Source: Chloroflexota bacterium (GTDB lineage: Bacteria; Chloroflexota; FW602-bin22; JACPRP01). Taken from it: DNA of 30,691 nt. The notes beneath the pieces are model-generated. The model was not told the DNA's origin and searched no databases. It was given only the letters and a program-made list of their open reading frames with translations. The position numbers and the translations under genes were made by a program. Location of the stretch: positions 1 through 30,691 of the forward strand of contig JACQUC010000013.1 in assembly GCA_016210495.1 (NCBI GenBank), given 5' to 3'. Each line of letters opens with the position of its first letter. The stretch's first letter is position 1. This document shows, one piece after another, positions 102-28,146 of this stretch.

Positions 102-398
102 AGTTCCGGGGGGCAACCACGCAGGGTTGCCCCTACAGAGGAACGATCCCCTCGCCCGCAGAGCATGATTCTCGGGCACGTCATCGAGTGGTTCAAAACG
201 ATGACGACAAATGCGTACATTCGCGGGGTAAAACAAGACGGATGGACGCCGTTTTCGGGCAGATTGTGGCAACGCAACTACTACGAGCGCGTCATCAGGA
301 ACGAGGACGAGCTGAATCACATTCGCGAGTACATCGCCTACAACCCGCTCAACTGGGCCACCGATCGCGAGAATCCCGAGGCGTCACCCCAACCGTAG
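102..398 (+). pseudogene. truncated REP-associated tyrosine transposase (RAYT) fragment
   Basis: This is the C-terminal part of a Y1/HUH-type RAYT transposase. From HVIEWFKTMTTNAYIRG to NYYERVIRNEDE and REYIAYNPLNW it is nearly collinear with the full-length copy at 10504-11262. The frame continues upstream of the first ATG (165) through the residues GQPRRVAPT encoded by a REP unit, back to an in-frame TGA at about 99-101. The HUH half carrying the His-x-His motif is missing. The catalytic-tyrosine segment NYYERVIR is intact but cannot work alone. The stop codon (TAG, 396-398) lies in the GTAG foot of a second hairpin. The fragment is therefore bracketed by two REP-type elements and looks like the remnant of a former insertion. 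Confidence 0.75.
110..136 (+). repeat. REP hairpin, CTAC foot at the 3' side (GTAG on minus strand)
   Basis: GGGGCAACC and GGTTGCCCC form a 9-bp perfect stem around a 6-nt loop (ACGCAG), followed by CTAC. Exact or near-exact copies occur at 10648, 10878, 10956, 25318, 25382 and 25483. It lies inside the transposase remnant and is read in its frame as GQPRRVAPT. Confidence 0.9.
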
Positions 399-430
399 GG
401 GTCCGCCTAAGGCGGACGTGGTTGCCCCGG
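395..430 (-). repeat. hybrid REP element (GTAG foot, TCCGCC stem)
   Basis: The element starts GTAGGGG and ends GTGGTTGCCCCGG as in the main REP family, but its centre is a different palindrome, TCCGCCTAAGGCGGA. An almost identical copy lies in the lexA leader at 17300-17335. The GTAG foot supplies the stop codon of the transposase remnant. The strand given is the orientation relative to the copy at 110. Confidence 0.85.
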
Positions 431-494
431 ACCCTTCGCCAGGTCGTACCGTCCATTTTTCCAGCACCGTCGCAACGTCGTACCGCAAGCTTCC

Positions 495-914
495 TCATCG
501 TCCCCCTTCCTGCAGCCAGTTCTCGACAGCGAGCCCGGGGACCCACTGGAAATGGCGAACGTTCCCGGTGACGAGCGTGAGACCGTGGGCGAGCGCAATC
601 GAGGCAATGCGGAGGTCGGCATCCCCTACCTGGATGCCCTGGCGCTCGAGCTCTGCCCCGACCTCGCCATAGTGTCTGGCCGCTCTGGCATCAAACGGCA
701 GAATGGGCAGGTTGGGCAGGACAACTTCGTCAATCCGTTTGAGTAAGGACTCAGTCCGGCCAATCGATCGATGGGCTCCAAAGAATAGCTCTCCAAGAGT
801 AATGCTTGACGTGAATTGCTGCTCGCGCGGGACAGAGGCCAGCCTGGTGATCAGATTGGTCGAGGGACTACGCCTGAGTAGGTTGCTGAGGATGTCCGTG
901 TCGAGCAAGTACAT
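495..914 (-). CDS. vapC: PIN-domain ribonuclease toxin, VapC family
   Basis: This is a 139-residue single PIN domain, the usual length for VapC toxins, which are Mg2+-dependent endoribonucleases that cleave tRNA or rRNA. The expected acidic residues are visible: D5 and D7 in LLDTDILSNLL, E42 in ITLGELFFGA and D100 in GDADLRIA, followed by the typical LVTGNVRHF with N118. The ATG overlaps the TGA of the antitoxin gene by one base (TGATG), the usual sign of a co-translated toxin-antitoxin pair. Both genes would be transcribed from the promoter near 1261-1289. The fold and toxin class are clear; the cellular RNA target cannot be read from sequence. Confidence 0.9.
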   Translation of the reverse strand: MYLLDTDILSNLLRRSPSTNLITRLASVPREQQFTSSITLGELFFGAHRSIGRTESLLKRIDEVVLPNLPILPFDARAARHYGEVGAELERQGIQVGDADLRIASIALAHGLTLVTGNVRHFQWVPGLAVENWLQEGGR

Positions 915-1216
915 CAGTCCTCGATCTCCACAGCCCTCCTGGTGTCCCTCTCGCGCTCGGCGTAGATAGCCGCGACCATTTTGTCCATCTCCTGGTCATC
1001 CAACTCACGCCAGGCCCCCACAAGGGCTAACGCACCCAGAGGACGCTCTGATGTGGCACGTCCCCATTCCAATTCCTCCAGGTCGTGCACGCTCACCAGC
1101 GCGGCGATGGGCTTGCCGCGGCGCTCGATAACATAATGCTCGCCAGCGTAGGCAACGCGCCCCATCAAAGCTGACAATTGCGCCTTCGCCTGCGCTGCGC
1201 TCACTGTCTTGGCCAT
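914..1216 (-). CDS. type II antitoxin, Phd/YefM family
   Basis: This 100-residue protein begins MAKTVSAAQAKAQLSALMGRV and continues with HYVIERRGKPIAALVSVHDLEELE. That is the Phd/YefM fold, in which the N-terminal part dimerises and binds the operator and the acidic C-terminal tail (AIYAERERDTRR...EIED) would wrap the toxin. It is upstream of and overlaps the PIN toxin gene, so it should neutralise that toxin and autorepress the operon. A GGAGGGG ribosome binding site lies at 1225-1231. Pairing a Phd-type antitoxin with a VapC toxin is common. Confidence 0.88.
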   Translation of the reverse strand: MAKTVSAAQAKAQLSALMGRVAYAGEHYVIERRGKPIAALVSVHDLEELEWGRATSERPLGALALVGAWRELDDQEMDKMVAAIYAERERDTRRAVEIED

Positions 1217-1246
1217 AGAATCGTCCCCTCCACGAGTTGGCTAATT

Positions 1247-1289
1247 GGTCATCTTGACCTATTGTACCACGACCCGATGGCGCGGGCAA
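1247..1289 (-). promoter_or_regulatory. promoter and candidate operator of the toxin-antitoxin pair
   Basis: On the minus strand TTGCCC (1289-1284) and TACAAT (1266-1261) are separated by 17 nt. Just downstream, overlapping the expected start of transcription, is the inverted repeat GGTCA-TCT-TGACC (1247-1259). This is a plausible site for autorepression by the antitoxin. The promoter match is moderate and the operator role is inferred from position and symmetry. Confidence 0.55.
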
Positions 1290-1317
1290 CGAGGCGGAGC
1301 CGGTACAAGACTTCGCC

Positions 1318-1346: not shown

Positions 1347-1384
1347 ACCTCATAGGAGATGCGGAATCCTGTGCGTGACATAAC

Positions 1385-3842: not shown

Positions 3843-3950
3843 AACCGCAAAGACGCCTGAGGCGTCCGCCCTCCGGCGGAACGCAAAGGGCGCGAAGGAA
3901 AATGGGGAATCTTTGCGGCGAGCGTCCGTCCGTTTTCATCCTTGGTGGCG
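3843..3950. repeat. CGCAAAG-type dispersed repeat interrupted by nested hairpins
   Basis: An AACCGCAAAG arm (3843-3852) and an ACGCAAAGGGCGCGAAGG arm flank an inserted block containing the palindromes GACGCCTGAGGCGTC and TCCGCCCTCCGGCGGA. To the right follow CTTTGCGGCGAGCGTC and TTTTCATCCTT. The same outer sequence family lies before the next helicase gene (7157-7250), there without the inserted hairpins. Confidence 0.65.
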
Positions 3951-3995: not shown

Positions 3996-6900
3996 ATGGG
4001 GAGCAGGGACATCGGCCTGACGGCGGTCCAGCGCCAGGTGGTGGAGGCGCCGGCCGCCAGAAGGGTCTTTATCGGCGGGCCGGGGGCCGGCAAGAGCCTG
4101 GTGGTCGGCGAGCGTGCGGTCTGGCTCCTCGCCAGCGGCGTCGCCCGGCCCGAGCACGTGTTGCTGCTCGCACCATCACGCCGCGCTGCAAACGCGCTGG
4201 CGGAGCACGTCCGCCGGCGCCTGGGCAGCGGCCTTCTGCCAATCGCAACCACTTTCCATGGACTCGCGGCGGGCATACTCAGGCGCCACTACCGCGAGTT
4301 GGGCTACCAGCGCCGTCCGGAGATCCTGGACACGGCGAGCCATTTCCATCTCCTGCGCCAGATGCTCGCCGCGGAGGATCCTTCGCGCTGGCCGCACTAC
4401 GGGGCGTCGCTCGACACCCTCGCGTTACGGAACACGGCGCACGATCTCATAATCGGTGCGGCGGAGAACGGGCTGAGCGTCGAAGAGTTGTACCGCCGGA
4501 CCGAGCGAGCGCACCGACCAGACTTCGCCGAGCTGATCGAGTTCTACGCCCGCTACCGCCGGCGGCAGCGGGAGACGGGCGAGATCGACTTCGGCGCGCT
4601 GCTCGTCGCCGTCGGCAGGTTACTGTCGGACAATCCGGCCGTCGCCACGACCTGGCGGCAGGCGCACCGACACATCCTCGTGGACGAGTTCGAAGCGGCC
4701 AGCCACGCCCAGGCCGGGATCCTCTGTCACCTCGTCGGCGAAGGTACGGACCTGCTGATCGCGGGCGATCCCGATCAGGCCATCGACGGCTACCGTGGCG
4801 GCAGCGCCGCACACCTCCTGGCGTGCCCGGAGCGCCTCGATGCCGGCGTGGTCGCTTCCTCGGAGAACTTACGCTCTGCCGGAAAGTTGGGCGCGCTCGT
4901 CGAGGTGGTGCGCAAAGCGATGCACACAGACTGGGGCGAACAGCCGTTCGCCCCTACGATAGATTGGAGCGCCACACAGGGATACGTGGAGGCATCGTGC
5001 CAGGAAGAACACCCGGGACGCGAAGGGGTTGCGGGAACGTTGCACACAACGTCAACACAGCAACCCTCCTTCCATTCAGGCCGAGTCGTGCTCCGCTCGT
5101 TCGCCACGCCGGCGGAGGAGGCGCGCTGGCTGGCGGCGGAGGTCGAAAGCCTGGTGCGCGCACGGCTGGCGCCCAGGCAGATCGCCGTTCTCCTGCGCAC
5201 CCTCTCGGCGGCTCAGCCGGTCATCCGCGAGCTGGCGCTGCGCGGCATTGACCACGACGCGCCTGAACGCGGCGTACGGGGCGACACCCTGGTGCGCGCC
5301 GCCCTCGGTCTGCTGCGCTATCTCACGGAAGGTGACGTTAAGTCACTGTCGCAACTGCTTAGCTCGCCATTGTCCGGTCTGCCGCCCTTCGGCCTGTGGC
5401 AACTGCGCCGCGCGGCAGCGCGCGCCGCGCTGGACCCGACGAGTCTGTTAGCGCAAGAGGTCGACCTGGACGCCCTGGCGCTGGACGCGGACGTCCGCGC
5501 CGCCATCGCTGCGCTGCGGGCGCGCCTGGCGACGCTGCGGGCGGAGGCCGATCGTGGCGCGTCGCGGCTGCTGTGGGAGGTCTGGCGGCTTTTTCCGGCA
5601 TTGCACGCGGATGCTCTCGGCGACGGCGCCGGCTCGCGTGCCATCGCCGTGCTGCTCGCCGCAGTGTTGCAGCTTGAAGAGCGGCGGGGATCGCTGGACC
5701 TCCGAGAGCTGCTCGGTCTTTGGGACGACGGCTACTTCGACCACCTGTCGGATTCGGCATCATCACCGGGCGTGGCCATCGCCACAGTTCAGCAGGCCAA
5801 GGGCCAGCAGTGGGAGGTCGTGTTTCTGCCTGGCCTGGTCGAGGGAGATTTTCCTCTCCAAGCTTCGCCTACGGACGTCGTGGGGACGCTGTTGGCCCAA
5901 GACCTCCTCGCCTCAAGTGACGCCGGGCGAGTGGCAGAGGAGGCGAGGGCTTTCTATGTCGCCATGTCGCGGGCCTGCGCCAGGCTTTATCTGTCTTACA
6001 GCCGCCGCAGGGCCGATGGCAGCACAGCGGGCTTGCGTTCGCGCTTCGTGACGATGGCGTCCGGCTGCCCGGGTGTCGACGTCATGCCCGAGGACGACGC
6101 CTCTCTTCCAACCGACATCGGGGGCGCCGTCTTACGTTACCGGCGGATGCTCGCCTCGCCCGACCGTCTGGCGCAAACGCAGGCGGTCTACGCTCTACAT
6201 AAGATGCGCCAACTTTGGCCCGAAGCCGTGCGCCCCGAGGACTGGTGGAGCAACATCCGCGAGACCGAGGGGGCGGCGCCAGCCTTTCCCGAGGGACGGC
6301 TTCGCCTGTCCGCAACCCAGCTCGGCAGCTACCGCGAGTGCCCCCTCGCTTACCAGTTCGGCCACTACTGGCGGCTGGCCGGCCCCAAGGGCCCACCTCT
6401 GGTCATCGGCGGTGTCGTCCACCAGGTGCTCCAGGAGTATCATCGCCCGGCGTCGCCACTGCCGCGCACGCGCGCGGCGCTGGAGGAACTGTTGGAGCGC
6501 TATCTTGCTCCCGCCAATTTTCGCTATCGGCCCATTGCCAGACAGGCCCGGAGGTCGATAGAGGAGATGCTCGACGCTTACTTCGGGCGCTACGGCGAGT
6601 CAGGACCTGCCGTCGATGTTGAAAAGGGGTTCCGCTTCGCCTGCGGTCCCCACGCGATCACGGGCTACATCGATCGCATCGACCGGCTTCCCTCCGGCGA
6701 GGTCGAGATCCTCGACTACAAGACCGGCGCCTCGCCAATGGCGAAGGCTGAGGCCGAGGCGGACCTGCAGCTCGCCATGTACGATCTGGCTTTCTATGGC
6801 GACAGAGACCTACAAGAGCTCGGAAGACCTGCTAAAGTGAGCTACCTGTATCTGAAGAGCATCGGCCCCCGGGCCGACGGCAAGCGCAGCTACGCCCCCA

Positions 6901-7121: not shown

Positions 7122-7156
7122 TGAAGTTGGGCTCTGTGTCTTGTACGAAGACACGT

Positions 7157-10200: not shown

Positions 10201-10507
10201 GTCTGGTCGGGCCACCCCGGAGGCCACGCCGGGCCATCGCCGGCAACTGGGGCTCTACACACTGGCGGTACGCCAGATCTGGCAAGCCCCGGCGGACCGC
10301 ATTGAGGCGCACCTCTTTTTCCTGCACGACGCCACAGATGTGGCGCTGGGGTTCACGGACACCGAACTCGACGAACTACGCGAAGAGGCCAATGCGGCGC
10401 TACGGTCGATTGGGCGGGAGGAGTTCGGGAGGACGAGGAACGAGCAGGATTGCAGCAAATGCCCATACAACCATCTGTGCCATCTCCCAACGGAGCAGTC
10501 ACGATGA
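7211..10507 (+). CDS. adnB: AdnB-like UvrD-family helicase with C-terminal RecB-type Fe-S nuclease
   Basis: About 1098 residues with a complete SF1A motor: VVAGAGTGKTT (near 44-54), LALTFTDKAAAEM, TTKTFHAFG, VDEYQDTN (near 268), GDDDQAIYRWRGA (near 297), MTIHQSKGLEFPVV (near 646) and RRLFYVAITRAQRH (near 724). The nuclease follows with GVEVHRRIEEL (near 895), GRIDRLDQL and VIDFKSG (near 994), plus CPRAYRY and CSKCPYNHLC for an Fe-S cluster. As the intact motor of the pair it corresponds to AdnB. Both subunits have nuclease signatures, expected for AdnAB and less so for RecBCD. The start is uncertain. The in-frame TTG 7211 and GTG 7226 lie in a repeat, while a good AGGAGGT (7262-7268) precedes no AUG, GUG or UUG in frame, only ACG codons at 7271 and 7274. 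Confidence 0.87.
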   Translation: MAPFAVNIPEFSSFCRIRRWTTSSQFTPTPEQERALSSPAPLLVVAGAGTGKTTVLTHRIARLIQEGRARPDQVLALTFTDKAAAEMADRLNELLGEPGTSAKERDVTTKTFHAFGDQVVRENLLWLGIDRAPAVLSGATAWQLLSSFFDDLTFDAVDISTAEVAGTFNRLLHFFSECKDHLVTPQSLEDYIRTADIAGLASPAAEVRVKKAAEMQDLAAAYRRYEDAKREKGFVDFGDLLLLPVQLFQAHPSVKAAYRRRYRYIFVDEYQDTNHAQRILLLELIDPSRPAIMVIGDDDQAIYRWRGAIVHNILKFPEEEVFARGRVTTLPMTQNRRSAPPILDLAHLVIGEVRERHPKKLGYREDGETGQATVGHYVAASDRLEAEWIAARIGGLHASAHELPGKKHGFGAFAILCRRRSLFEPLGRALEAAGIPYELIGGTGFYGRWEIRDILSYLRVLASTHGSAACLAETSDDLALARILRSRRLRLASRDLFHLGQWVRQQNGDRGSEEEGRVRVALLDAVLRHEEVTGLSGPAVARLAALRQELQAYSRDCQRLSLAEILTRVIEGTGYRRELLAEPGFDAKMALLNLAKLEDMARQFEEATEGGGLGDFIEFVAYAVESGEEEGEVRPAEEESDSVKIMTIHQSKGLEFPVVFIPGLGEGMFPSRARSESDTWHLPRGLRGDRVYVPHLNLAAVQTKADLQRAQDQHKQEERRIQLDEERRLFYVAITRAQRHLYFSRAHWYGSRKSPSEPSIFWETVAGCGLSLDLGQAQRPDANPNLHPDHTVEMTKSSSTGPEPAGLLLEEGDPSGWIESTAQQEGHERWIPLKAEAEAHIARLVADRGTPVAETGVDITCSGLVHYLTCPRAYRYVYVDHLPTRPSWRATRGVEVHRRIEELSRSIDPTLRAPLDDAVEDELDDREHHVEELPGTAWQHVSTEEMVAHFQASIYARRPATYVELPFSHALPAGTLRGRIDRLDQLPDGRWEVIDFKSGRATPEATPGHRRQLGLYTLAVRQIWQAPADRIEAHLFFLHDATDVALGFTDTELDELREEANAALRSIGREEFGRTRNEQDCSKCPYNHLCHLPTEQSR

Positions 10508-11262
10508 AGTTCAGTCCCCACGTGCATCACCGCCATTCCCTTCGTCTGAGGGGTCATAACTACGGCCAGCCGGGCGCCTACTTCATCACCATCTGTACAC
10601 AGAACCGAATCCACTTGTTTGGCGAAATCGTCGGCTGGTCCGACCCTGTAGGGGCAACCCTGCGTGGTTGCCCCGATGCCAGCCTGCGCACATACCCCGA
10701 AATGGAGGTGAACGACGCAGGGCAAATGGTCGTGGGGTGGTGGCAGGAACTGCCCAACAAGTATCCCAAGATTGAGGTGGACGAATACACCGTCATGCCG
10801 AACCATTTCCACGGCATATTGCTGTTAGGATGGGCGGGCGATAGAGAGGATTTCGAGACGGTCGATGGGGCGGGGACGGGGCAACCACGCAGGGTTGCCC
10901 CTACGCGGTCTGACCTGGCGGGAGGGCAATCAGAGATGGTCGCACCTACGCGGGCGGGGCAACCACGCAGGGTTGCCCCTACAGGTACGTCCTCACGCCC
11001 CCAGGCCTTTGTAGTGGGACACGCCGTCGAGTGGTTCAAGGCGATGACGACAAACGCCTATATTCGGGGAGTAAAACAAGAGGGGTGGTCACCGTTTCCC
11101 GGTCGACTATGGCAACGCAATTACTACGAGCACGTTATCAGGAAGGACAACGAGTTCAACCGTATTCGCGAGTACATCGTCAACAACCCAGCCAACTGGG
11201 CGTCGGATAAGGAGAACCGTGAGGCACCCTATCACAAGCCCGACGAGGCTTGGCAAGTCTGA
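10504..11262 (+). CDS. REP-associated tyrosine transposase (RAYT), Y1/HUH superfamily
   Basis: This 252-residue single-strand DNA transposase is of the IS200-like TnpA-REP type. GAYFITICTQNR (24-35) is the usual N-terminal strand, PNHFHGILLL carries the HUH motif (H101, H103) and NYYEHVIR (206-213) carries the nucleophilic tyrosine. REYIVNNPANW ends the family core. The ATG at 10504 overlaps the stop of the AdnB-like gene (ATGA), so it may be translated by coupling to it. Unusually, REP units are embedded in frame. One gives VGATLRGCP (49-57), and two give GQPRRVAPT (126-134 and 152-160) in the linker between the HUH and Tyr parts. RAYTs are single-copy, domesticated-looking transposases that cut and join REP hairpins next to a GTAG foot. 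The dispersed hairpins in this window are the likely substrates. Confidence 0.9.
   Translation: MKFSPHVHHRHSLRLRGHNYGQPGAYFITICTQNRIHLFGEIVGWSDPVGATLRGCPDASLRTYPEMEVNDAGQMVVGWWQELPNKYPKIEVDEYTVMPNHFHGILLLGWAGDREDFETVDGAGTGQPRRVAPTRSDLAGGQSEMVAPTRAGQPRRVAPTGTSSRPQAFVVGHAVEWFKAMTTNAYIRGVKQEGWSPFPGRLWQRNYYEHVIRKDNEFNRIREYIVNNPANWASDKENREAPYHKPDEAWQV
10648..10674 (-). repeat. REP hairpin inside the transposase gene (GTAG-first orientation)
   Basis: GTAG is followed by GGGCAACC, a loop and GGTTGCCCC, the exact reverse complement of the copy at 110. It is read in the transposase frame as VGATLRGCP. Confidence 0.9.
10878..10904 (+). repeat. REP hairpin inside the transposase gene
   Basis: This has the same 9-bp stem, 6-nt loop and CTAC as the copy at 110, and is read as GQPRRVAPT in the linker of the transposase. 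Confidence 0.9.
10923..10950 (+). repeat. degenerate REP hairpin between two intact copies
   Basis: GGGCAATCAGAGATGGTCGC followed by ACCTACG aligns with the REP unit with several substitutions. It encodes GGQSEMVAPT, which still echoes GQPRRVAPT. This points to an older insertion that has drifted while keeping the reading frame. Confidence 0.6.
10956..10982 (+). repeat. REP hairpin inside the transposase gene
   Basis: This is a third forward unit, identical in stem, loop and CTAC foot, 78 nt (26 codons) downstream of the one at 10878, so the phase is preserved. Further degenerate pieces (CAGGGGCAACCCTGTCGTTG at 11270) lie after the stop codon of the gene. Confidence 0.9.
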
Positions 11263-11388
11263 GCCACCGTGCAGGGGCAACCCTGTCGTTGCCTCCTTGC
11301 CCAGACCGACAATGTTGGGATCCTTACGGCGGAAGGATGTCGTTGCCCTCTCGCCAGCCCAACCGGATTGCCGCGCCCAATCAACCCG

Positions 11389-13035: not shown

Positions 13036-13076
13036 ATCGTACCTCCTTGCTTGCACGAGCGTCGGTACTTGAGAAC

Positions 13077-17299: not shown

Positions 17300-17335
17300 G
17301 TAGGGGTCCGCCTTAGGCGGACGTGGTTGCCCCGG
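17300..17335 (-). repeat. hybrid REP element in the lexA leader
   Basis: It matches the element at 395-430 except for one base in the centre (TCCGCCTTAGGCGGA). It would form a hairpin in the lexA 5' leader about 85 nt before the ATG, so it could affect translation or early termination. That effect is speculation. Confidence 0.85.
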
Positions 17336-19958: not shown

Positions 19959-19987
19959 GTAGAGACGACCCGCCGGGTCGTCTCTAC
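19959..19987. repeat. perfect palindrome with GTAG/CTAC feet
   Basis: GTAGAGACGACCCG and its exact complement CGGGTCGTCTCTAC flank a single C. Both ends carry the GTAG foot of the REP family, with an unrelated stem sequence. It lies 17 nt after the end of hyuA and could also act as a terminator hairpin, although no T-run follows. Confidence 0.85.
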
Positions 19988-20004: not shown

Positions 20005-22083
20005 TCACCAACCCCCTATTCGCGCACCGTCGACCATCACATAGTTGCCATAACAATCGCACCTGACCCGATAGCCCGTTGGCACCAGGATCGTCGTGGT
20101 CACCTGCTCGATGACCGCCGGGCCGTGCACCTCGTCGCCGCAGCCCATCTGGTCGCCGTCCCAAACGTCGACCTCAGCCATACGATGCTCCGCGGGCAGG
20201 AAGATGGGCCGGCGGCCCTTGACGGGAAGATGGCCCTCGGGCCGCGCCGGCGCCTCGGGAAAGCGCAAGCGGGGCATGCGGCCCACGCAGGTCAGGCGCA
20301 CGTTCACTAGCTCCACCGGCTGGCCCTCGAGACAGTAGCCGAAGATTCGGTCGTGGGCGCGGTGGAACTCGCCTTCCAGCGCCTTCAGGTCTCCCGCCCG
20401 AACGGCCTCCCGGCTAGTAGGCACCTCTACCTCGTGATACTGCCCGACGTAGCGGACGCTCAGCGCGTAGGCCATCTCCATCCGCTCGGCGGAGACACCC
20501 TCGGAGGCGAGCGCGGCGCGACCCTCTTCCTCCATCTCACCACACACCCTTGCCAGTTGCGCCAGGTCCATCTCGTCCAGGATGCCGAAGAAGGTCCGCG
20601 TGTAGTCGTGCTTGAGGTCTGAAAGCAGCACGCCACCGGCGGTGAAGATCGAGGAGTGCCTGGGAATTATGATGATGGGGACCTCCAGCTCGGCGGCGAT
20701 CATCGCCGCATGCACCGGTCCGGCGCCCCCCGCCACGACGAGCGGGAAGTCGCGCGGGTCGTAGCCGCGCTTGATGGTGACCTCTTTCACCGCCGCCGCC
20801 ATGTTGACGTTGACCACCTGGTAAATGCCGGCGGCGGCCTGGAGCAGATCGAGCCCCAGCGGCTCGGCAACCCTACGCCGGATCGCCTCTCGCGCGAGCT
20901 CCTGGCGCAGGCGCATCCGTCCGCCGAGGAAGTAGTCGGGGTTCAGGTACCCCAGCTCCAGATCGGCATCGGTCACCGTGGCATCCTGACCGCCGAAGCT
21001 GTAGCAGGCCGGGCCGGGATCGGCGCCCGCACTCTGCGGCCCCACGCGCAGCAGGCCGCCCTCGTCGATCCAGGCGATGCTCCCACCGCCGGCACCCACG
21101 CTGTGTACGTCCACCATGGGCAGGGCAACGCGATAGCGGTTGATGCTGGCATCGCTGACGACCACCGGCGCGCCATCCTTGATCAGCGCCACGTCCAGGC
21201 TCGTGCCCCCCATATCCACCGTAATGCAATCCTTGTATCCCTGGAGCTCGGCATAGGCAGCACCGGCCACCGCCCCGGCAGCAGGACCGGATAGCGCCGT
21301 GCCCGTCGCCGTCTTCATTGCCTGCTCCGCCGACATCACGCCGCCGTTCGCCTTCATGATCAGGAGCGTTCCCCGAAAACCCGCGTCCAGCAGCTTCTGT
21401 TTGAGCAGCCCCAGGTACCCGGCCAGGATGGGCCCCAAATAGGCATTCATCACCGTCGTGCTCACCCGCTCGTAGAAACGGATCTCGGGCAGCAGCTCGG
21501 TAGATACGGTCACGTACGCGTCCGGCATCTCACGCGCCAGCAGCGCTGCCGCCACCACCTCGTTTTGAGTGTTGGCGTACGAATTCAGCAAGCAGACGGC
21601 TACCGCCTGTACGCCGTGCGCGCGAAACCTCGCCGCCGCGGCCTGAATGTCCTCTTCCGGCACCGGCGCCAGCACCTCGCCCCGGTCGCTCACCCTCTCC
21701 CTTACCGGCAAGCGCAGCCTTCGCGGCACCAGCGGCTTAGGATGGGGATACTTGTTGTCGTAGATCTCCTCCTTGATGCCCCGCCGCATCTCCAGGGCAT
21801 CGCGAAAGCCATACGTGGTCAGCAGGCCGGTCTTAACGCCCGTGTTCGTGAGGATCGCGTTCGTCGTCGCCGTCGTGGCGTGGACGATCATCTCCACGCC
21901 CGCCAGAAAATCGGCGAGCGAGGCGCCGCACTGCTCGGCCAGGTCGCGGAGGCCCCGCATCACGCCCTCCGAGCGATCGGCCGGAGTGGTCAAGGTCTTG
22001 TGGATCTCGAACGTCTTTTCCTCGTCGACCATCAGAAAGTCGGTGAAAGTACCGCCGACGTCGATGCCAATTCTATAGGCCAT
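20005..22083 (-). CDS. hyuA: hydantoinase/oxoprolinase subunit A family protein (HyuA-like)
   Basis: This 692-residue ATP-binding subunit belongs to the family of N-methylhydantoinase A, 5-oxoprolinase and acetone/acetophenone carboxylase subunits. The nucleotide-binding signature IGIDVGGTFTDF is at residues 5-16. Further family motifs are VHATTATTNAILTN, TVDMGGTSLDVALI and VAGGAGPVHAAMIA. It is expected to activate a cyclic amide or ketone using ATP, with HyuB as partner. The start ATG at 22083 has GGAGGTG six bases upstream and overlaps the end of hyuB by 11 nt, so the two are translationally coupled. Which reaction is catalysed cannot be told from sequence; the UbiD neighbours make carboxylation chemistry as plausible as hydantoin hydrolysis. 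Confidence 0.93.
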   Translation of the reverse strand: MAYRIGIDVGGTFTDFLMVDEEKTFEIHKTLTTPADRSEGVMRGLRDLAEQCGASLADFLAGVEMIVHATTATTNAILTNTGVKTGLLTTYGFRDALEMRRGIKEEIYDNKYPHPKPLVPRRLRLPVRERVSDRGEVLAPVPEEDIQAAAARFRAHGVQAVAVCLLNSYANTQNEVVAAALLAREMPDAYVTVSTELLPEIRFYERVSTTVMNAYLGPILAGYLGLLKQKLLDAGFRGTLLIMKANGGVMSAEQAMKTATGTALSGPAAGAVAGAAYAELQGYKDCITVDMGGTSLDVALIKDGAPVVVSDASINRYRVALPMVDVHSVGAGGGSIAWIDEGGLLRVGPQSAGADPGPACYSFGGQDATVTDADLELGYLNPDYFLGGRMRLRQELAREAIRRRVAEPLGLDLLQAAAGIYQVVNVNMAAAVKEVTIKRGYDPRDFPLVVAGGAGPVHAAMIAAELEVPIIIIPRHSSIFTAGGVLLSDLKHDYTRTFFGILDEMDLAQLARVCGEMEEEGRAALASEGVSAERMEMAYALSVRYVGQYHEVEVPTSREAVRAGDLKALEGEFHRAHDRIFGYCLEGQPVELVNVRLTCVGRMPRLRFPEAPARPEGHLPVKGRRPIFLPAEHRMAEVDVWDGDQMGCGDEVHGPAVIEQVTTTILVPTGYRVRCDCYGNYVMVDGARIGGW

Positions 22084-23851
22084 TGCCAGCACCTCCCACG
22101 CGTCGCGACTCACGCAGCGCCTCGGTCGCCGCGTAATCGATCTCCAGGGCCGCCGGGTCGATCACCACGCCGTAGTCACGGTGGGCGGCCTCGACGGACA
22201 CAAACTCGTCCAGGACGTCCTCCAACACCGCCTCGGGCGCTCGCTCCAGCGGATCGCCAAAGCCGCCGCCGCCGCCGCTGTGCTGCTCGACAATCGTGCC
22301 AGGGGGCAGGGGATCCTTGATGATCTCTTTGCAGCGGGTCGCATGGGTGGTCCCGTCGGGATAGATGAGACGCGAGCGATTGGGCACGCCGTCGCGGCCG
22401 CCGAAGACCCCGTAGCCCCCCTCGTCCTCACCCTGCACGATCGCGACACCGTCCCGGCCGTCAAAGCGCCAGGAGGTCGTGTTGCCCAGGCCACCCCGCC
22501 AGCGACCGGGCCCGCCCGTGTCGACCTCGTACTCGTGATGAATCAGGAAATGCGGGTCCTGCAGCTCGAACAGCTCGTAATCTTGCGTCAGGGTGGAGAC
22601 AGAGTAGATCGGCGCGGCGTTGGAGAAGCCGTCGAGACCATCGCTGGCCCCGGCGCCGCCCTTGAAAGCCACAAACAGAATGTCGCCGTACCGTCGGCCG
22701 CGGCGAGGGTCCCAACCCGTGATTCGCCAGGCGTGGCACTTAGCCCAGCCGGCCGTCACCCGCTGCGGCAGCGCGGGCGCAAAGGCCCGGAAAATGGCGT
22801 CGGCGTGCGGCGCCGAGGTGAAGTTGCCGTAGAAGGTGGCCGCGGGCGGACGCGGGTTCAGCATGCAGCCCTCAGGGATATTGAAGTGCACCGGACGCAG
22901 CGAGCCCTCGTTGTGGGGCACCTGCGGGCTGACCAGCATGAAGACCACGTTCAGAGCGGCGGAGATGCTGGAGGAGAGGGGCGCGTTGGTATAGGCCTCG
23001 GCCTGCGGGCTGGTGCCGGTGTAATCCAGCAACATCTCGTCGCCGTCCACAGTGACTGTAACGCGAATGGTGTAGGTGCGATCCTCGTGGATGCCATCGA
23101 ACGTGATGTGGGTCTCGCCCGTGTACGTGCCGTCGGGAATAGCCTGGATCTCCTTGCGCATCATCCGCTCGGCAGAGTCATAAATCGCCTCCACCAGCTC
23201 GAAGAAGGCCGCGTGCCCGTAGCGGGCCACCAGCGCCTGGACCCTACGCTGGCCCAGCATGCAGGCGCCGATCTGCGCCCGCATATCCGGCTCGATGATC
23301 TCCCGCAATCGCATATTAGAGAAGATCAGGTTCCAGACGTCGCGCTTGAAAACGTTCTTCTCGTAGATCTTGACCGGCGGAATGCGCAGCCCCTCCTGGT
23401 AGTACTCGGTAGCCAGGGGATTGCAGGAAGAGGGCACCGGGCCTCCCAGATCCAGTTGGTGCCCCTTCGTCGCCGCCCAGGCGACCAGTTGTTCGCCGTC
23501 GAAGATCGGGATGTAGATGCCGGTGTCCGAGAGCTGCTGGCCTCCGGCAAACACGTCGTTGTGCAATATTACGTCGCCGGGCGCCACGTCGTCTCCGTAG
23601 AAGCGGACGACGTGCTGGCAGCCCCGCGGAATGGCAAAACAGAAGAGAGCGCGGAACTCGTCCTGCTCCAGCATTCCCCCTCGCGCGTCCATCAGCCCGG
23701 AGCCCATATCGCGGGCCTGATTCTGAAGCGGCGAGCGTGAAGCCCGCAGCAGCGCCTGCGATATCTCCCCCGCGATGGACTTGAGACGGCGCTGCAGCAC
23801 CGACACCAGCACCGGATCTACCTTCGTTCCCGCAACGTGTGATTCTAGCAC
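22073..23851 (-). CDS. hyuB: hydantoinase/oxoprolinase subunit B family protein (HyuB-like)
   Basis: This 592-residue partner of HyuA has family signatures at the N-terminus (DPVLVSVLQRRLKSIAGEIS), ILHNDVFAGGQQLSDTGIYI (usually NDPY-GG-H-D; here Q replaces the His), TGTSPQAEAYTN, FNIPEGCMLNP and a glycine-rich end (HSGGGGGFGDPLER). The GTG at 23851 follows GGAGGGG. In transcription order hyuB precedes hyuA, as in many acetophenone-carboxylase-like and hydantoinase clusters. Only two subunits are present, so it is not a full multi-subunit acetone carboxylase. Glutamine at the usual histidine of the NDP motif may affect metal binding. Confidence 0.92.
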   Translation of the reverse strand: MLESHVAGTKVDPVLVSVLQRRLKSIAGEISQALLRASRSPLQNQARDMGSGLMDARGGMLEQDEFRALFCFAIPRGCQHVVRFYGDDVAPGDVILHNDVFAGGQQLSDTGIYIPIFDGEQLVAWAATKGHQLDLGGPVPSSCNPLATEYYQEGLRIPPVKIYEKNVFKRDVWNLIFSNMRLREIIEPDMRAQIGACMLGQRRVQALVARYGHAAFFELVEAIYDSAERMMRKEIQAIPDGTYTGETHITFDGIHEDRTYTIRVTVTVDGDEMLLDYTGTSPQAEAYTNAPLSSSISAALNVVFMLVSPQVPHNEGSLRPVHFNIPEGCMLNPRPPAATFYGNFTSAPHADAIFRAFAPALPQRVTAGWAKCHAWRITGWDPRRGRRYGDILFVAFKGGAGASDGLDGFSNAAPIYSVSTLTQDYELFELQDPHFLIHHEYEVDTGGPGRWRGGLGNTTSWRFDGRDGVAIVQGEDEGGYGVFGGRDGVPNRSRLIYPDGTTHATRCKEIIKDPLPPGTIVEQHSGGGGGFGDPLERAPEAVLEDVLDEFVSVEAAHRDYGVVIDPAALEIDYAATEALRESRRVGGAGNGL

Positions 23852-23867
23852 CAGGTTTACCCCTCCA

Positions 23868-23897
23868 CTACGGCACGTACTTACTTAATTGAGGCAT
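23868..23897 (-). other. short remnant resembling the 3' end of a substrate-binding protein gene
   Basis: Ten codons ending PQLSKYVP-stop mirror the last codons of the substrate-binding protein at 24092 (KQLGKYVP-stop), with matching DNA (GGCACGTA then TTA). It sits just before the hyuB start. The match is short, so chance or gene conversion remains possible. Confidence 0.35.
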
Positions 23898-23952
23898 GGT
23901 CATTAATCAAACAAGGCGCGCAAAAGCGGACTGGGAACGTTGAGCCGGGAGC

Positions 23953-23996
23953 GCCCCGCTTTGCGGGGCCCGCCCCCTCGCGGGCGAGACGCCCGC
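23953..23996. repeat. two adjacent GC-rich hairpins between hyuB and the SBP gene
   Basis: GCCCCGC-TTT-GCGGGGC (23953-23969) and GCGGGCG-AGA-CGCCCGC (23980-23996) lie in the 240-nt spacer. They are dispersed-repeat-like and could attenuate transcription from the SBP gene into hyuB. No T-run follows, so a classic terminator is not supported. Confidence 0.6.
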
Positions 23997-24091
23997 ACCC
24001 CCAGATTCGTCCCAGGCAATTATGACCAAGCCTCACCTAACTGCTTCCTGTGGAGCCTTGATTCATCAAGGCGGGGACTCCCCCCGTCTAT

Positions 24092-25267
24092 CTATGGCAC
24101 GTATTTACCTAGTTGCTTCACCGCGTTATCTGCGTACTGTGCATCCAGAACCCTCTTCGGGTCCAGATCCTCTTTGAGCAGGTCGCGGCCGCGATACCAT
24201 TTCAACTGGCTCTCGAGGTCGGAGAGCTTGATCTCGCCGTTGGAGTCCAGGCCCGGCATAACCATTTTCTCGTACAGTGCCGCATCTTTGACTGACGTCT
24301 GCTTGGTGAGTAGCGTGATGATGGCAGCACGGTCTTTCTTCTTGGGCCCGAAGGCGTCGTTGTAGTCGCGCACTCCCTTCAGGTAGGCCACCATCCAGCG
24401 ATTCGCCGCGTCGGACATCTTGTCCATGAAGTGCGGCGCGTAGAGGATCGACGCGCCCACGGAGGGGTCAAACTCGTCGGCGCCGGCAATCTTGACCACC
24501 AGCCCCTTTTCAACCCCCTCGGTCACCAGCGGCTCCAGCAGAATCGACGCCTCGAGCGCCTTGTTGCCGTAGGCGGCAAGCTGAGCCGGGTGGCTGAGGG
24601 CGATGAGGTCAACATCGCTGACCTTGAGCCCGCCCTTGCCGAGCGCTTTCTCCATCTGTATCTCCGACCCCCCGCCCAGGTTGCTCACGGCTAGCTTCCG
24701 GCCTTTGAGGTCTTTGTAGCCGCGCACCTGGCCGCTGTCGTAGAGGTCTTTGCGCACCACCAGCGCGGCAAAGCCGTGCCCCGCGGAGTTGGTTCCCTTA
24801 TCGGCGACGGCTTTCATCGGGATATTCCTTAAGATTGCGTTGAAGAGCCCGGTGCTGAAGGCGCCGCCGCCCACCTCCAGTTGGCTGCTGGACATCGGCG
24901 CGATCATTTGACTCGCGCTATCGAAACTAACCATCTCGAAATCGATGCCCTGCTCCTTGAAGTAAGCCTTTTCCAGCGCGACGTAGACGCCCGCGTCGGA
25001 AAGCGAGCCGACGGCGCCCACGCGCACCTTCACGGCCGGGGCAGGCGGAGCCTTGGTCGGCGTTGCCACCGACTTGGCCACCTCGGCCTTGGGTGGCACA
25101 GCCTTGGTCGGCTCGGGCTTTGCCGATTCGGCTTTCGCCGGCGCGGCTTTGGTCGGTTGCACCTTCGCCGGCTCGGTCTTGGCTGGCGCCGGCGCGGCCG
25201 GCGCGCAGGCGACCAGGAAAAGCAGCGCAAAGGCTAACACGCGAAGAAGGAGATGTTTTCCCGGCAT
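24092..25267 (-). CDS. ABC-type substrate-binding lipoprotein (NMT1/SsuA/TauA-like)
   Basis: This 391-residue extracytoplasmic binding protein has a signal peptide ending in the lipobox LVAC, so C21 would be lipidated. Residues 22 to about 80 are a long Ala/Pro/Lys/Thr/Glu linker made of near-repeats such as PTKAAPAK and PTKAVPPK. The folded part starts VKVRVGAVGSLSDAGVYVAL and continues FKEQGIDFEMV, GGGAFSTGLFNA and LKGRKLAVSNLGGGSEI, the layout of the SsuA/NrtA/THI5-like family for sulfonates, nitrate, pyrimidines or aromatic acids. The ATG at 25267 follows AAGGAG. No permease or ATPase gene is nearby. Its place between UbiD and Hyu genes suggests it captures their substrate. Confidence 0.9.
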   Translation of the reverse strand: MPGKHLLLRVLAFALLFLVACAPAAPAPAKTEPAKVQPTKAAPAKAESAKPEPTKAVPPKAEVAKSVATPTKAPPAPAVKVRVGAVGSLSDAGVYVALEKAYFKEQGIDFEMVSFDSASQMIAPMSSSQLEVGGGAFSTGLFNAILRNIPMKAVADKGTNSAGHGFAALVVRKDLYDSGQVRGYKDLKGRKLAVSNLGGGSEIQMEKALGKGGLKVSDVDLIALSHPAQLAAYGNKALEASILLEPLVTEGVEKGLVVKIAGADEFDPSVGASILYAPHFMDKMSDAANRWMVAYLKGVRDYNDAFGPKKKDRAAIITLLTKQTSVKDAALYEKMVMPGLDSNGEIKLSDLESQLKWYRGRDLLKEDLDPKRVLDAQYADNAVKQLGKYVP

Positions 25268-25300
25268 AATAGTGGCTCCTTACTGTTAGCAAAGAATATC

Positions 25301-25408
25301 TGTTGCGAAACAGGTCCGGGGCAACCACGCAGGGTTGCCCCTACGTTCCTCGTTAAGACCGTGTGTTGCGAAACGGGTCCGGGGGCAACCACACAGGGTT
25401 GCCCCTAC
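25301..25408 (+). repeat. two tandem 63-bp-spaced units each containing a REP hairpin
   Basis: TGTTGCGAAAC(A/G)GGTCCGG precedes the REP hairpin at 25318-25344 and again at 25382-25408 (one loop change, ACACAG). The common segment means REP and flank were duplicated together. The 357-nt gap 25268-25624 holds only such repeats and no gene. Confidence 0.85.
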
Positions 25409-25482
25409 ATACCGTCCGCCGCCAGGTCAGCCGCGTGACCGGCCGTATGGTTCTGACAACGAGGGCGCGAGGAGACGACCCA

Positions 25483-25509
25483 TAGGGGCAACCCTGCGTG
25501 GTTGCGCCC
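25483..25509 (-). repeat. diverged REP hairpin, reverse orientation
   Basis: ATAGGGGCAACC, the loop and GGTTGCGCCC match the family, with the foot changed from GTAG to ATAG and one mismatch in the right arm. It faces the two copies at 25318 and 25382, giving an inverted arrangement like a REP cluster. Confidence 0.75.
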
Positions 25510-25515
25510 GTCCTG

Positions 25516-25551
25516 TCCCCTCTCCCGCTGGGAGCGGGTTAGGGTGAGGGT
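25516..25551. repeat. CCTCTCCCGCTGGGAG-type dispersed repeat
   Basis: CCCCTCTCCCGCTGGGAGCG followed by GGTTAGGGTGAGGG is a widespread bacterial intergenic repeat type. It is related to the element at 18051-18080. Confidence 0.55.
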
Positions 25552-25624
25552 CGTCCTCTCGCATGCATCGGTCTCTACCCCTCCACAAGCGACTCTCGCC
25601 CCTCCAACATGTCCAGTATCGCCA

Positions 25625-25969
25625 CTAAGTCGACAAGCGCCTCACTCTGATTCGATCACGATCCGCGCCCCGCTCCGCGAAACCCTCACTAATCAAAATC
25701 GGGCCGACGTAAGAAGTGCCGCACCGGCTGTGCTTCCCTTTGAGCCATTCCCCGAGGCTGCCCTTCGGAGGATTTGAGAAGCTAGTGCCGATACTCACCT
25801 CTTGTCCCGAGAATTGCGCTAGCATACTAGCGTAGTCGTTTCCCTTGATGGTGAACTTATGTTTGAAATTGCGCCCAACATAGACAGTTGTACCCTGGTG
25901 AACCGATCCCTCGTACTGGAACTTCGCCCGCCCATCCCACGTCGGTAAGGTTATCCTGGTCTCAGACAT
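25625..25969 (-). CDS. hypothetical protein, 114 residues
   Basis: A small protein beginning MSETRITLPTWDGRAKFQYE and continuing with VYVGRNFKHKFTIKGNDYAS, then SLGEWLKG, GTSYVGPILISEGFAERGAD and a basic end. Alternating hydrophobic and polar residues suggest a beta-rich fold. There is no signal peptide and no motif I know. An AGGAGG lies 11 nt before the ATG, slightly far. It lies between a UbiD gene and the SBP gene on the same strand, so it may belong to that operon. GC content is lower than its neighbours, which could indicate separate acquisition. Confidence 0.6.
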   Translation of the reverse strand: MSETRITLPTWDGRAKFQYEGSVHQGTTVYVGRNFKHKFTIKGNDYASMLAQFSGQEVSIGTSFSNPPKGSLGEWLKGKHSRCGTSYVGPILISEGFAERGADRDRIRVRRLST

Positions 25970-26074
25970 AGAGCGACCATCCTCCTAGACTCAAACTGAC
26001 GAACCTCCGTACCAATGGTAAATCCAGCCTGCCAGTATACACGCACTACAACATTTCCAGCTAAACGTTTGGCT

Positions 26075-27487
26075 TCAAGGCAGATACTCCTCCAGGCGCA
26101 CGCGGTCCAGCACGTCAGGCGCCGGGTGGCCGATTTCGTCGTACGCCTCGCCCACGGCCCTTGTGCTGTCGATCACCAGGCCGCCCACGGCGGCGTCCAC
26201 CCCGCTTGCCGTGCCCGCCGCGCCACTGGCCGATGGGTCCTGCCGGCCCAGCGGCGACAGGTTAGGCACGACGTAGGTCTGCCGGTTGGCGTCGACGCGG
26301 GTGCCCATCGCCCACATTACGCTGCTGAGGTCGAACGGGTCCACGTCGTCGTCCACGACGATGACGTGCTTCACCAGGTCGGCGTAGCTATGGGCGAGGC
26401 CCACCAGCCGCCCCACATCGCCCTTGCGCGTAGGGTGGAACTGCACGACTATCACGCCCGGCGCCGCGAAGTTGATGGCCCCCACCGTGGGGAAGCGACT
26501 CGCCAGCAGATGGCGCAGGTAAGACCCCGTGGCCACCTCAGTGTAGATGCCCTGGCCGACCCAGATCGCCTGGAACATCGGCGACTCCCGCATGTTCACC
26601 GCCGTGAGCGTGATAGCCGGCTCCAGGGTTTGCGGGGCGTAGTAGCGCTGCATATCCACCCAGGGACCGCACAGCTCGCGCTCCCGCGTGGAGATGTAGC
26701 CCTCCATCACCACCTCGGCGTCGGCCGGAATCATCAAGTCCTCGCCCCACGTCTCGGATGGCGTGATGCGCAGTGGCTCGCCCAGGAGGCCGCCCGCGAA
26801 GGCGTATTCGTCCATATCCTGTCCCGGACGCAAGGCGGCGGCGAGGCCGAACTGCGGGTGATGGCCAAAGACCTGGGCAAACGGCACCCGGTCCTCGCCG
26901 CGCTCCCTGTACTTCATAACGATCCGCCACATGTCGCGCGGCTCCATCTTGCAACTAGCGCGGCTTGGGGAGACGATCATCGCGCGATGCCAGGAGGTGT
27001 TATAGCGGCCGTCGTCGGGGTCTTTCCCCACGATCACGCCCGTGAGCCAGCCGGGACGGGCATCTTTCTCGTTGCCGCGGTACCCGGGCAGGTCGAAGAA
27101 GCTGATCTCGGGCGCTCGGAGCACCCGCTGCTTCACCGGCGCCTCGCCCGGGTTCACCACAACGGGGGCGAAGGGCCGTCCCGCCCGCTTGGCCGTCTCG
27201 ACCTCCACGTGCAGCGGCGTCAGACGCTCGCGGGGCAGGCCATAGCCCGCGCCGAACTTGCTCCAGGTGCCGTCTACCTGAAATGCCACGCTTCCTGGCC
27301 AGCGATCTCCCGCCAGCGTAGTCACGTGCTCGAAGACCGCCAGCGGCCGCCGGCCCTGCCCGAACAAATGGTGTAGAATGGCGACGCACTCGCCCTCGGC
27401 CGGACTGAGCGGCCCCCTGGATACGCGCACGATCTCTTCCGGCAGCTCGCGCGCCAACTGCGCGGCAAAAGATTGCAGGTCTTTCAC
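26075..27487 (-). CDS. UbiD family (de)carboxylase, copy 2
   Basis: 470 residues of the prenylated-FMN-dependent UbiD fold, which reversibly decarboxylates aromatic, heteroaromatic or alpha,beta-unsaturated acids. Family features are FFDLPGYRGNEKDARPGWLT, GRYNTSWHRAMIVSP (cofactor and metal-binding Asn/His and catalytic-type Arg), PADAEVVMEGYIS (conserved Glu pair) and VVDDDVDPFDLSSVMWAMGT. It is shorter than copy 1 and diverged from it, so it probably acts on another substrate or as another subunit. The GTG at 27487 lies only four bases after the stop of the decayed SBP gene, so translation may be coupled to it. No UbiX-type prenyltransferase gene is in the window. Confidence 0.92.
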   Translation of the reverse strand: MKDLQSFAAQLARELPEEIVRVSRGPLSPAEGECVAILHHLFGQGRRPLAVFEHVTTLAGDRWPGSVAFQVDGTWSKFGAGYGLPRERLTPLHVEVETAKRAGRPFAPVVVNPGEAPVKQRVLRAPEISFFDLPGYRGNEKDARPGWLTGVIVGKDPDDGRYNTSWHRAMIVSPSRASCKMEPRDMWRIVMKYRERGEDRVPFAQVFGHHPQFGLAAALRPGQDMDEYAFAGGLLGEPLRITPSETWGEDLMIPADAEVVMEGYISTRERELCGPWVDMQRYYAPQTLEPAITLTAVNMRESPMFQAIWVGQGIYTEVATGSYLRHLLASRFPTVGAINFAAPGVIVVQFHPTRKGDVGRLVGLAHSYADLVKHVIVVDDDVDPFDLSSVMWAMGTRVDANRQTYVVPNLSPLGRQDPSASGAAGTASGVDAAVGGLVIDSTRAVGEAYDEIGHPAPDVLDRVRLEEYLP

Positions 27488-27491
27488 TCGG

Positions 27492-27853
27492 CTACTTGTA
27501 CTCCCCCAGTTGCTTCAAGGCCTGATCCAGGAAGCGGCGATCCACCACGGTGGCTATGTTAGCCTTCTTCTCCTAGCCGTGGTCGGCGTACCAATCCTGC
27601 TGGTACCGAATGTCGTCCACCTGAAGCTCGCCGTTGGCGTTGTACTGGAGCACGCTCATCTTATTGTAGAGCGCACGGTCCTTGCCACCGGCGCCGGTGT
27701 TGCGGCGGCGGCCGGCTTCGCGGGCGCCGGAGCTGTCGTGGGCTTGGGGGCCGCGGTAGGCGTCGGCTGCGCCGCCGGCGTGCAGCGAGCGACCAAGACG
27801 AACCCGAGAACCATCGCGAGAACAGACCATAGAGCCTTGCGGTTGACGAGCAT
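27492..27853 (-). pseudogene. decayed substrate-binding lipoprotein gene with internal deletion
   Basis: The 5' part encodes a lipoprotein signal (ALWSVLAMVLGFVLVARC) and a Pro/Ala/Thr linker (PTPTAAPKPTTAPAPAKP). After a frame change near 27700 the sequence resumes as KDRALYNKMSVLQYNANGEL and QQDWYADHG, aligning with the C-terminal region of the SBP at 24092 (KDAALYEKM..., LKWYRG). A TAG then interrupts (probably a former Trp), followed by FLDQALKQLGEYK and the stop. About 250 codons of the binding domain are missing. It sits between the zinc-ribbon gene and UbiD copy 2. Confidence 0.85.
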
Positions 27854-27881
27854 CACCTTGAATCTCCTCCCTTCAAGCTAT

Positions 27882-27911
27882 GGGCGTCCTTCCGCGGAAG
27901 GACGCCCCTAC
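27882..27911 (-). repeat. palindromic REP-like element with GTAG foot
   Basis: GGGCGTCCTTCCG and CGGAAGGACGCCC form a perfect 26-bp palindrome, with GTAG reading on the minus strand at 27911-27908. The TAG of the foot is the stop codon of the zinc-ribbon gene. Confidence 0.8.
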
Positions 27912-28075
27912 TGGGTCCTGAAGTTGGTCGACACTATCCTCCCCTCGCTGCGCGGGAACCGCGCCATGCACATTGGACAGTACATTAGGAACTCCTCGCC
28001 CTGATCCCAGACCATCTTGTGAACGTTGTAGACGTGCCCGCAGTGCGGGCACTCGACATAGAATATGGGAGCCAC
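27908..28075 (-). CDS. small zinc-ribbon protein linked to UbiD
   Basis: A 55-residue protein too short to stand out. GTG at 28075 follows AGGAGG with five bases between. It carries two CxxC knuckles, YVECPHCGHVYNVH (C9, C12) and MYCPMCMARFPRS (C33, C36), spaced as a single zinc ribbon, followed by a short basic tail. Such ribbons act as small accessory subunits or nucleic-acid or protein docking modules. Its position between the two UbiD genes, 91 nt after copy 1, suggests an accessory subunit of the decarboxylase. The role is inferred from context. The stop codon is provided by the GTAG foot of the palindrome. Confidence 0.8.
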   Translation of the reverse strand: MAPIFYVECPHCGHVYNVHKMVWDQGEEFLMYCPMCMARFPRSEGRIVSTNFRTQ

Positions 28076-28119
28076 TTGATCCTCCTACTTGACCATACAA
28101 AGGTCCGGGCCCACACGTT

Positions 28120-28146
28120 GTAGGGGCGGACGGCGCAGTCCGCCCC
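28120..28146 (+). repeat. REP-type hairpin with a different stem, GTAG foot
   Basis: GTAG then GGGGCGGAC (overlapping the G of the foot), loop GGCGCA and GTCCGCCCC. It has a 9-bp stem and 6-nt loop, the same architecture as the main REP but with an unrelated stem sequence. It lies between UbiD copy 1 and the zinc-ribbon gene. Confidence 0.85.

Follow-up and report, generated by a model that had tools for sequence, protein, structure and literature searches.

In-frame GTAG hairpins in a Chloroflexota RAYT gene and their probable kinship with the REP classes around it

Six classes (A to F) of hairpins with a GTAG foot, far above chance expectation, were found in a 30,691-nucleotide stretch of Chloroflexota DNA (assembly GCA_016210495.1, contig JACQUC010000013.1, positions 1 to 30,691; hereafter the window), together with one intact and one truncated gene of a REP-associated tyrosine transposase (RAYT, or TnpAREP; REP, repetitive extragenic palindrome). 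The window probably represents a REPtron of TnpAREP subclass 2.4, in which REP classes A and B derive from the lineage of the RAYT encoded here, and classes C, D and F from another. This interpretation draws on the anatomy of the locus, on the constancy of foot and stem base, on compensatory changes within the stem, on the kinship between RAYT genes and the REPs near them, and on a REP architecture that follows the RAYT tree.

The intact RAYT carries the motifs NHFH at residues 100-103, WQ at 203-204 and YIVNNP at 224-229; the HuH and YIVNNP motifs are invariant or nearly so across 30 aligned relatives. Its best solved relative by sequence profile search is the TnpAREP structure 4er8 (E = 8e-05), which likewise ranked top in a fold search (E = 2.2e-04; template modelling (TM) score 0.37 by query length). 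Three class A REPs lie in frame within the gene (10504-11262) and encode one peptide in the plus orientation and another, twice, in the minus orientation (Table 1); the REP at 10648 (+) and those at 10878 and 10956 (-) form a REPIN arrangement, in which inverted REPs point their GTAG outward. The REP-encoded residues fall in segments of low predicted confidence (predicted local distance difference test, pLDDT, below 50, at residues 49-56, 117-147, 149-157 and 159-163); residues 109-166 make up a variable insert, which separates the HuH strand from the helix that follows. The gene product would thus be a HUH/Y1 transposase with class A REPs encoding parts of two presumably disordered loops, and with a further class A copy at the 3' edge of its gene. 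Judged by its sequence motifs, its insert, the type of its REPs and their position of insertion, the gene appears to match TnpAREP subclass 2.4, an assignment made with the feature list of Quentin et al. (2018, PMC6006769).

The truncated RAYT at the beginning of the window corresponds to residues 149-241 of the intact protein, with 69% identity over 94 aligned columns, and its stop codon at 396-398 is the TAG of a class B foot. Its similarity to the intact copy ends near REP 110 (window 99-136), which in this single case looks like a break at the internal REP.

The window contained 19 perfect hairpins (stem of at least 8, loop of 3-8), against a mean of 4.8 in 30 dinucleotide shuffles; GTAG or CTAC was found near the foot of 10 of these 19, compared to a shuffle mean of 0.07 and a maximum of 1, with the qualification that six of the ten are class A copies and the counts are therefore not independent. 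A stricter foot test found GTAG in 9 of 9 hairpins with a GGGC or GGGG arm base and in 1 of 10 others, this one being class C. Classes A, B, E and F have the stem base GGG(G), and class C has a double foot. The hairpins named by an earlier, sequence-only reading of this DNA were recovered in their places; absent from it were class F at 4933-4957, the degenerate class A element at 11271-11296, and the circumstance that the copies at 10648, 10878 and 10956 sit within the RAYT gene itself. Its view that hairpins with unrelated stems share one GTAG foot holds for the foot, but not for class B, which keeps the outer ends of class A: it reads GTAGGGG + TCCGCCTWAGGCGGA + CGTGGTTGCCCC, i.e., the foot, basal stem and 3' arm of class A with another core, so that GTAGGGG and CGTGGTTGCCCC are retained and CAACCCTG is exchanged for TCCGCCTWAGGCGGA. 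An unrelated origin of the class B stem was therefore rejected in favor of class A ends around a new core. Because A and B have both their ends and their RAYT lineage in common, a single RAYT lineage is likely for the two. The two class B copies (395 and 17300) differ beyond the 38 nucleotides over which they match; class B was found in none of 29 genomes from the class of the genome that best matches the gene at 11389-13053, with up to 3 mismatches allowed. Class C (19959) does have GTAG, but paired within the stem at both ends, and the supposed diverged copy at 25483 is indeed derived from class A, yet with ATAG instead of GTAG as its foot and with a mismatched stem. The two class A copies in the interval 25290-25420 each adjoin TGTTGCGAAAC(A/G)GGTCC, which suggests that a longer unit was duplicated in tandem; CCCCGGACC occurs 3' of class B at 428 as well.

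Table 1. RAYT genes and REP elements of the window.
Feature	Position	Strand	Remarks
Truncated second RAYT	102..398	+	C-terminal part only; in-frame stop at 99-101, just before REP 110
Class A REP in truncated RAYT	110..136	-	site equivalent to 10956 REP
Class B REP	395..428	+	TCCGCCTAAGGCGGA core between class A ends
Class F REP	4933..4957	-	GTAGGGGCGAACGGCTGTTCGCCCC; within UvrD-like helicase reading frame 3996-7121
Intact RAYT / TnpAREP gene	10504..11262	+	252 aa; NHFH, WQ, YIVNNP motifs
Class A REP in RAYT gene	10648..10674	+	codons from 49; peptide VGATLRGCP
Class A REP in RAYT gene	10878..10904	-	peptide GQPRRVAPT
Class A REP in RAYT gene	10956..10982	-	peptide GQPRRVAPT
Degenerate class A REP	11271..11296	+	GCAG foot; shortly 3' of RAYT stop codon
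Class B REP, second copy	17300..17333	+	97% over 38 nt
Class C	19959..19987	+	perfect palindrome, GTAG/CTAC paired at both ends (GTAGAGACGACCCG...)
Class A REP, intergenic	25318..25344	-	
Class A REP	25382..25408	-	one loop base altered; 64 nt from 25318 copy
Diverged class A copy	25482..25508	+	ATAG foot
Class D	27882..27910	-	11-bp stem of GGGCGTCCTTCC type; one end GTAG, the other degenerate
Class E	28120..28146	+	GTAG + GGGGCGGAC stem, 6-nt loop

The occurrence of REPs inside RAYT genes extends well beyond the window. Homologs of the window RAYT numbered 7,476 proteins, 120 of them listed; the loci were surveyed by a scan of one genome per species, from which the best 80 of at least 80 existing loci were taken. 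Under a looser hairpin criterion that requires GTAG, 63 of the 80 loci have a GTAG hairpin within the RAYT gene, and these loci bear the labels of 16 phyla. The REPIN-like order of a plus followed by a minus element ("+-") was found in 29 of the 80 genes; minus elements alone accounted for 13, double-foot elements for 11, plus elements alone for 5, and other orders for 5. Plus members begin on a codon boundary in 39 of 44 cases, and minus members are distributed over the three frames as 29, 17 and 3; where the HuH motif was recognised, 41 of 54 plus or double-foot elements begin 4-12 residues past it. Perfect hairpins, sought without regard to the foot, amount to 108 in 45.6 kb of RAYT genes (2.37 per kb) and to 424 in 1,050 kb of RAYT flanks (0.40 per kb). 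One Chloroflexi-titled RAYT region (L094, 1286-1470) has long G and C runs where others have the REP pair. The gene at 11389-13053 in the window did not lead to close relatives: 40 of 400 genomes in the phylum of one of the genomes examined (G005) matched, the best with 47% identity.

Among the 108 perfect hairpins in RAYT genes, 85 have a GTAG foot, and the foot accompanies a particular stem base: GTAG is present in 82 of 90 hairpins with GGGC or GGGG at the base of the arm, compared to 3 of 18 others. In the flanks, the corresponding figures are 103 of 142 hairpins with such a base, where 20.4 would be expected from random flanks, and 34 of 282 without it, where 10.8 would be expected. These foot-independent hairpin sets are the source of the constancy figures, since the zero foot difference in the 63 of 80 surveyed loci and in the "+-" pairs follows by construction from the exact GTAG required there. 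When 73 single-foot hairpins are aligned on GTAG, the three G past the foot are invariant and the following C varies in 2; in this alignment, where columns 5-13 alone are informative, the next positions hold little information, and 29 different ten-base stems occur among the 73. The earlier proposal that the foot is under stronger constraint than the stem is supported in the form that GTAG plus the basal GGGC vary less than the mid-stem; the notion that GTAG alone matters was rejected, as the basal GGGC is equally constant.

Genome-wide counts were made in nine Chloroflexota-titled genomes reached through RAYT loci, where the pattern GTAGGGGC-(8-16)-GCCC and its reversed counterpart occurred in ratios of 52:3, 109:41, 142:17, 14:15, 307:17, 79:18, 48:21, 167:16 and 45:11. 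The enrichment of GTAG that the sequence-only reading had proposed as a check was thus seen around RAYT genes and in most genomes counted, but not in genome G004 or in contig 16 of genome G003. Contig 16 is the sole systematic sample among the contigs scanned in three relatives; the contigs of G005, of G008 and C4, C10 and C40 of G003 were picked partly for pattern matches, and their foot excess is therefore biased upward.

Variation in the stem is distributed in zones. In the 20 of 29 "+-" pairs that were compared (of the nine omitted, eight had unequal lengths and one, L007, was out of register with 10 mismatches; L010 and L049 were kept after trimming of one 3' C), the two members differ at 1 of 80 basal positions, four per pair, at 32 of 80 mid-stem positions and at 24 of 113 loop positions; the mid-stem difference between genes is 0.417. 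Nineteen of the 20 pairs differ in the mid-stem, and 30 of the 32 altered mid-stem pairs have changed on both sides, with pairing kept. The upstream member most often has AGAC and the downstream member GAAC (8 of 20 each). Within the 34 genes that have at least two REPs, positions 9-10 are as variable as in shuffled data (0.549 vs. 0.585, with 1411 of 5000 shuffles as low), and positions 11-12 are conserved (0.216 vs. 0.528, 0 of 5000 as low). This conservation extends outside the genes: 92 distinct flank REPs from 30 loci differ at positions 11-12 by 0.221 from the local gene, compared to 0.538 from other genes (0 of 3000).

The sequence-only reading had suggested that one RAYT system mobilises several hairpin classes; this did not find support, and is disfavored for the double-foot types. 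Of 133 REPs located no farther than 10 kb from one of 38 RAYT genes, 63 share the four inner stem bases with an intragenic REP of the local gene (double-foot elements being counted once per strand), compared to a mean of 7.7 and a maximum of 30 in 2,000 permutations over genes. On a tree of 81 RAYTs (147 columns, with many forks unresolved), 10 of the 11 double-foot RAYTs fall in one of the two main branches, and foot architecture requires 5 changes, compared to 10.4 when shuffled (0 of 500 as low); the loop-proximal pair, scored as AC vs. others, requires 6 changes, compared to approximately 16 (0 of 500). The window RAYT is placed in the single-foot branch, near two loci (L011 and L021) whose RAYTs carry the class A AACC stem inside. 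Class F, in turn, differs by a single loop base from the double-foot REP that lies within L057, a Planctomycetes-titled RAYT (GAACGGCCGTTC vs. GAACGGCTGTTC). Genome G008 has two RAYTs with different intragenic classes, GCAAC and GTCCGG, both of which also occur elsewhere in the genome; a tblastn search that covered 60 of the 91.8 kb of its contig 15 found no third RAYT there. The local stem matches, the mostly separate double-foot branch and the two RAYTs of G008 argue for class-specific RAYTs for classes C, D and F; a single enzyme for all stem classes is less probable than a set of transposase lineages, each with classes of its own.

Several observations weigh against this interpretation. 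The window RAYT scores under the curated cut-offs of its families (Pfam Y1_Tnp, 18.5 bits with a cut-off of 23; NCBIfam REP_Tyr_transpos, 49.4 bits with a cut-off of 80). No GTAG hairpin was found in the RAYT gene at 17 of the 80 loci; G004, one of the nine genomes, shows no excess of the foot pattern (14 vs. 15), and the systematic 200-kb sample, G003 contig 16, shows no foot enrichment (1 of 8 vs. 1 of 29). Seventy of the 133 nearby REPs do not match their local RAYT, and the tree branch with 10 of the 11 double-foot RAYTs also contains 12 single-foot RAYTs. At positions 9-10, flank REPs differ less from the local gene than from other genes (0.452 vs. 0.62, 0 of 3000); since dispersed REPs thus match the nearby RAYT there, these positions are not free of family identity: they are free within the gene, yet show family likeness among neighboring REPs. 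Finally, a single RAYT was found in G003 beside three large stem classes, GCAC (29), AGAC (24) and GGGT (18), as counted in the 80 hairpin-forming elements among the 100 matches listed of 142, with double-foot elements on both strands; one RAYT for all three would fit, although the genome may be incomplete. In the RAYT of G003, GCAC occurs inside and AGAC at the edge; of the GCAC elements dispersed in the genome, however, nearly all have a double foot and a different loop. The stem classes were not found to be independent of RAYT lineage, but G003 makes several classes for one RAYT conceivable within a lineage.

With these points taken into account, the REPtron interpretation suggests the following mechanism. 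The RAYT would be expected to recognise GTAG, the basal GGGC, the loop-proximal pairs and the loop of single-stranded REPs and, by analogy with other RAYTs for which this activity is known, would cut and rejoin the folded single strands. The outer-middle stem pairs would be left free by the enzyme, and compensatory changes could accumulate there as the pairs drift. The lineage of the window RAYT, represented by an intact gene and a truncated one, would have given rise to classes A and B; classes C, D and F, which resemble double-foot REPs, would most likely belong to another RAYT lineage, located off the contig or lost. A tentative extension, which we consider doubtful, is that subclass 2.4 RAYTs read a REP code of three zones: GTAG-GGGC ends common to all, a loop-proximal stem and loop specific to the lineage, which would indicate the cognate RAYT, and a free middle. 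The intragenic inverted pair would then act as the seed stock in which new stem classes form through compensated drift ahead of their spread.

A single RAYT that reads little beyond the GTAG foot and moves every class of hairpin in the genome would account for the foot that all classes have in common, for the many loci with different compensated mid-stems within one RAYT gene (19 of 20 pairs), and for the one RAYT found in G003; it is nonetheless improbable, since nearby REPs match the stems of the local RAYT far above permutation, loop-proximal pairs and foot architecture track the RAYT tree, the two RAYTs of G008 each have their own intragenic class, and a separate REP family has been described for each tnpAREP gene (Quentin et al., 2018, PMC6006769). 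That the hairpins are ordinary terminators or unrelated palindromes with a coincidental foot is hardly credible: strong hairpins without GTAG are indeed common (282 of 424 flank hairpins lack the GGGC or GGGG base, and 248 of these lack GTAG), but the foot is enriched over shuffles and random flanks, and near-identical copies are repeated.

The zone pattern itself could reflect common descent of the REP pair combined with selection on the encoded peptide, instead of enzyme recognition. REPs do encode part of the protein, 39 of 44 plus members share a reading frame, and AGAC upstream and GAAC downstream are typical (8 of 20 each). Yet descent alone leaves variable positions 9-10 next to shared positions 11-12 within one gene unexplained, and the same fixed ends are found outside the gene, in 103 of 142 flank hairpins compared to the 20.4 expected; this explanation is therefore regarded as unlikely, but as one to be kept in mind.

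The neighboring genes include two adjacent UvrD-like helicase genes (3996-10507), each with a C-terminal PD-(D/E)XK nuclease domain, in a layout that we take to be AddAB-like. The class F REP lies in the first of these genes. The second ends in an ATGA that also contains the start codon of the RAYT, which may therefore be translated together with the helicase genes. An imperfect inverted repeat, GTTAACCGCAAAGAACGCAAAGAGCGCAAAG, is located between the two helicase genes at 7155-7231; one of its arms has a related copy at 3911-3943. The truncated RAYT is adjoined by a pair of genes for a PIN-domain protein and a Phd/YefM antitoxin (495-1216), and the interval 20005-29813, with hydantoinase A and B genes, an NMT1-like binding protein and two UbiD-like decarboxylases, is possibly a catabolic cluster.

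The pairing of REPs with RAYTs is usually guessed from flanking copies; since the gene in this RAYT group carries its own substrate in frame, cognate pairs become readable from sequence alone in at least 16 phyla. The zone pattern predicts directly what cleavage assays should show, in a RAYT group where the literature, as far as accessible, offered none. Should new classes stem from the intragenic pair, the origin of REP diversity would be located; if the three-zone code is true, the REPs of any genome could be assigned to their RAYT with the intragenic REP as a barcode.

The finding is not new in kind, since its elements have been described (Di Nocera et al., 2013, PMC3733652; Nunvar et al., 2013, PMC3686654; Quentin et al., 2018, PMC6006769). 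TnpAREP subclass 2.4, the equivalent of Bertels' group 4 (Table 1 of Quentin et al., 2018, PMC6006769), is already known for in-frame REPs inside tnpAREP genes, for double-foot REPs and for a GC stem base, and intragenic REPs as a novelty had to be rejected on these grounds. The window and its relatives share with this subclass the NHFH, WQ and YIxNNP motifs, a variable insert that follows the HuH strand, long REPs whose stems have three basal G-C pairs and that are inserted in frame between HuH and Y within the tnpAREP gene, and double-foot REPs as a second type. The plus-then-minus order (29 of 80), the compensated differences within intragenic pairs, the zone-wise conservation and the tree test were not found in the subclass description, as far as accessible; the zone statistics, the compensated pair difference and the tree test are additions not found in the accessible open-licence literature searched. 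The GTAG superfamily, whose foot is conserved across 24 families with differing stems (Di Nocera et al., 2013, PMC3733652), likewise has several families per genome, REPs within genes that include UvrD/Rep helicase and recB, and foot TAGs used as the stop codon of a neighboring open reading frame; in contrast to the window, REPs inside RAYT genes are not mentioned in the available part of that study. REP class switching on orthologous RAYTs of Pseudomonas and Stenotrophomonas (Nunvar et al., 2013, PMC3686654) is similar in that different REP classes flank orthologous RAYTs and class abundance depends on the cognate RAYT; those RAYTs belong to another group and their REPs flank the gene, whereas the REPs of the window also occur inside it. 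In vitro REP recognition has been examined for TnpAREP of groups 2 and 3 (Corneloup et al., 2021, PMC8266576), where the foot was required for cleavage in two systems and guided the cleavage site in one, and where, in group 3, loop bases were decisive and most stem swaps had a modest effect. Foot and loop carry the most weight there, as would be expected for the window RAYT; single GTAG changes, in contrast, were tolerated for binding in one system, and these models represent groups 2 and 3, whereas the window RAYT resembles group 4.

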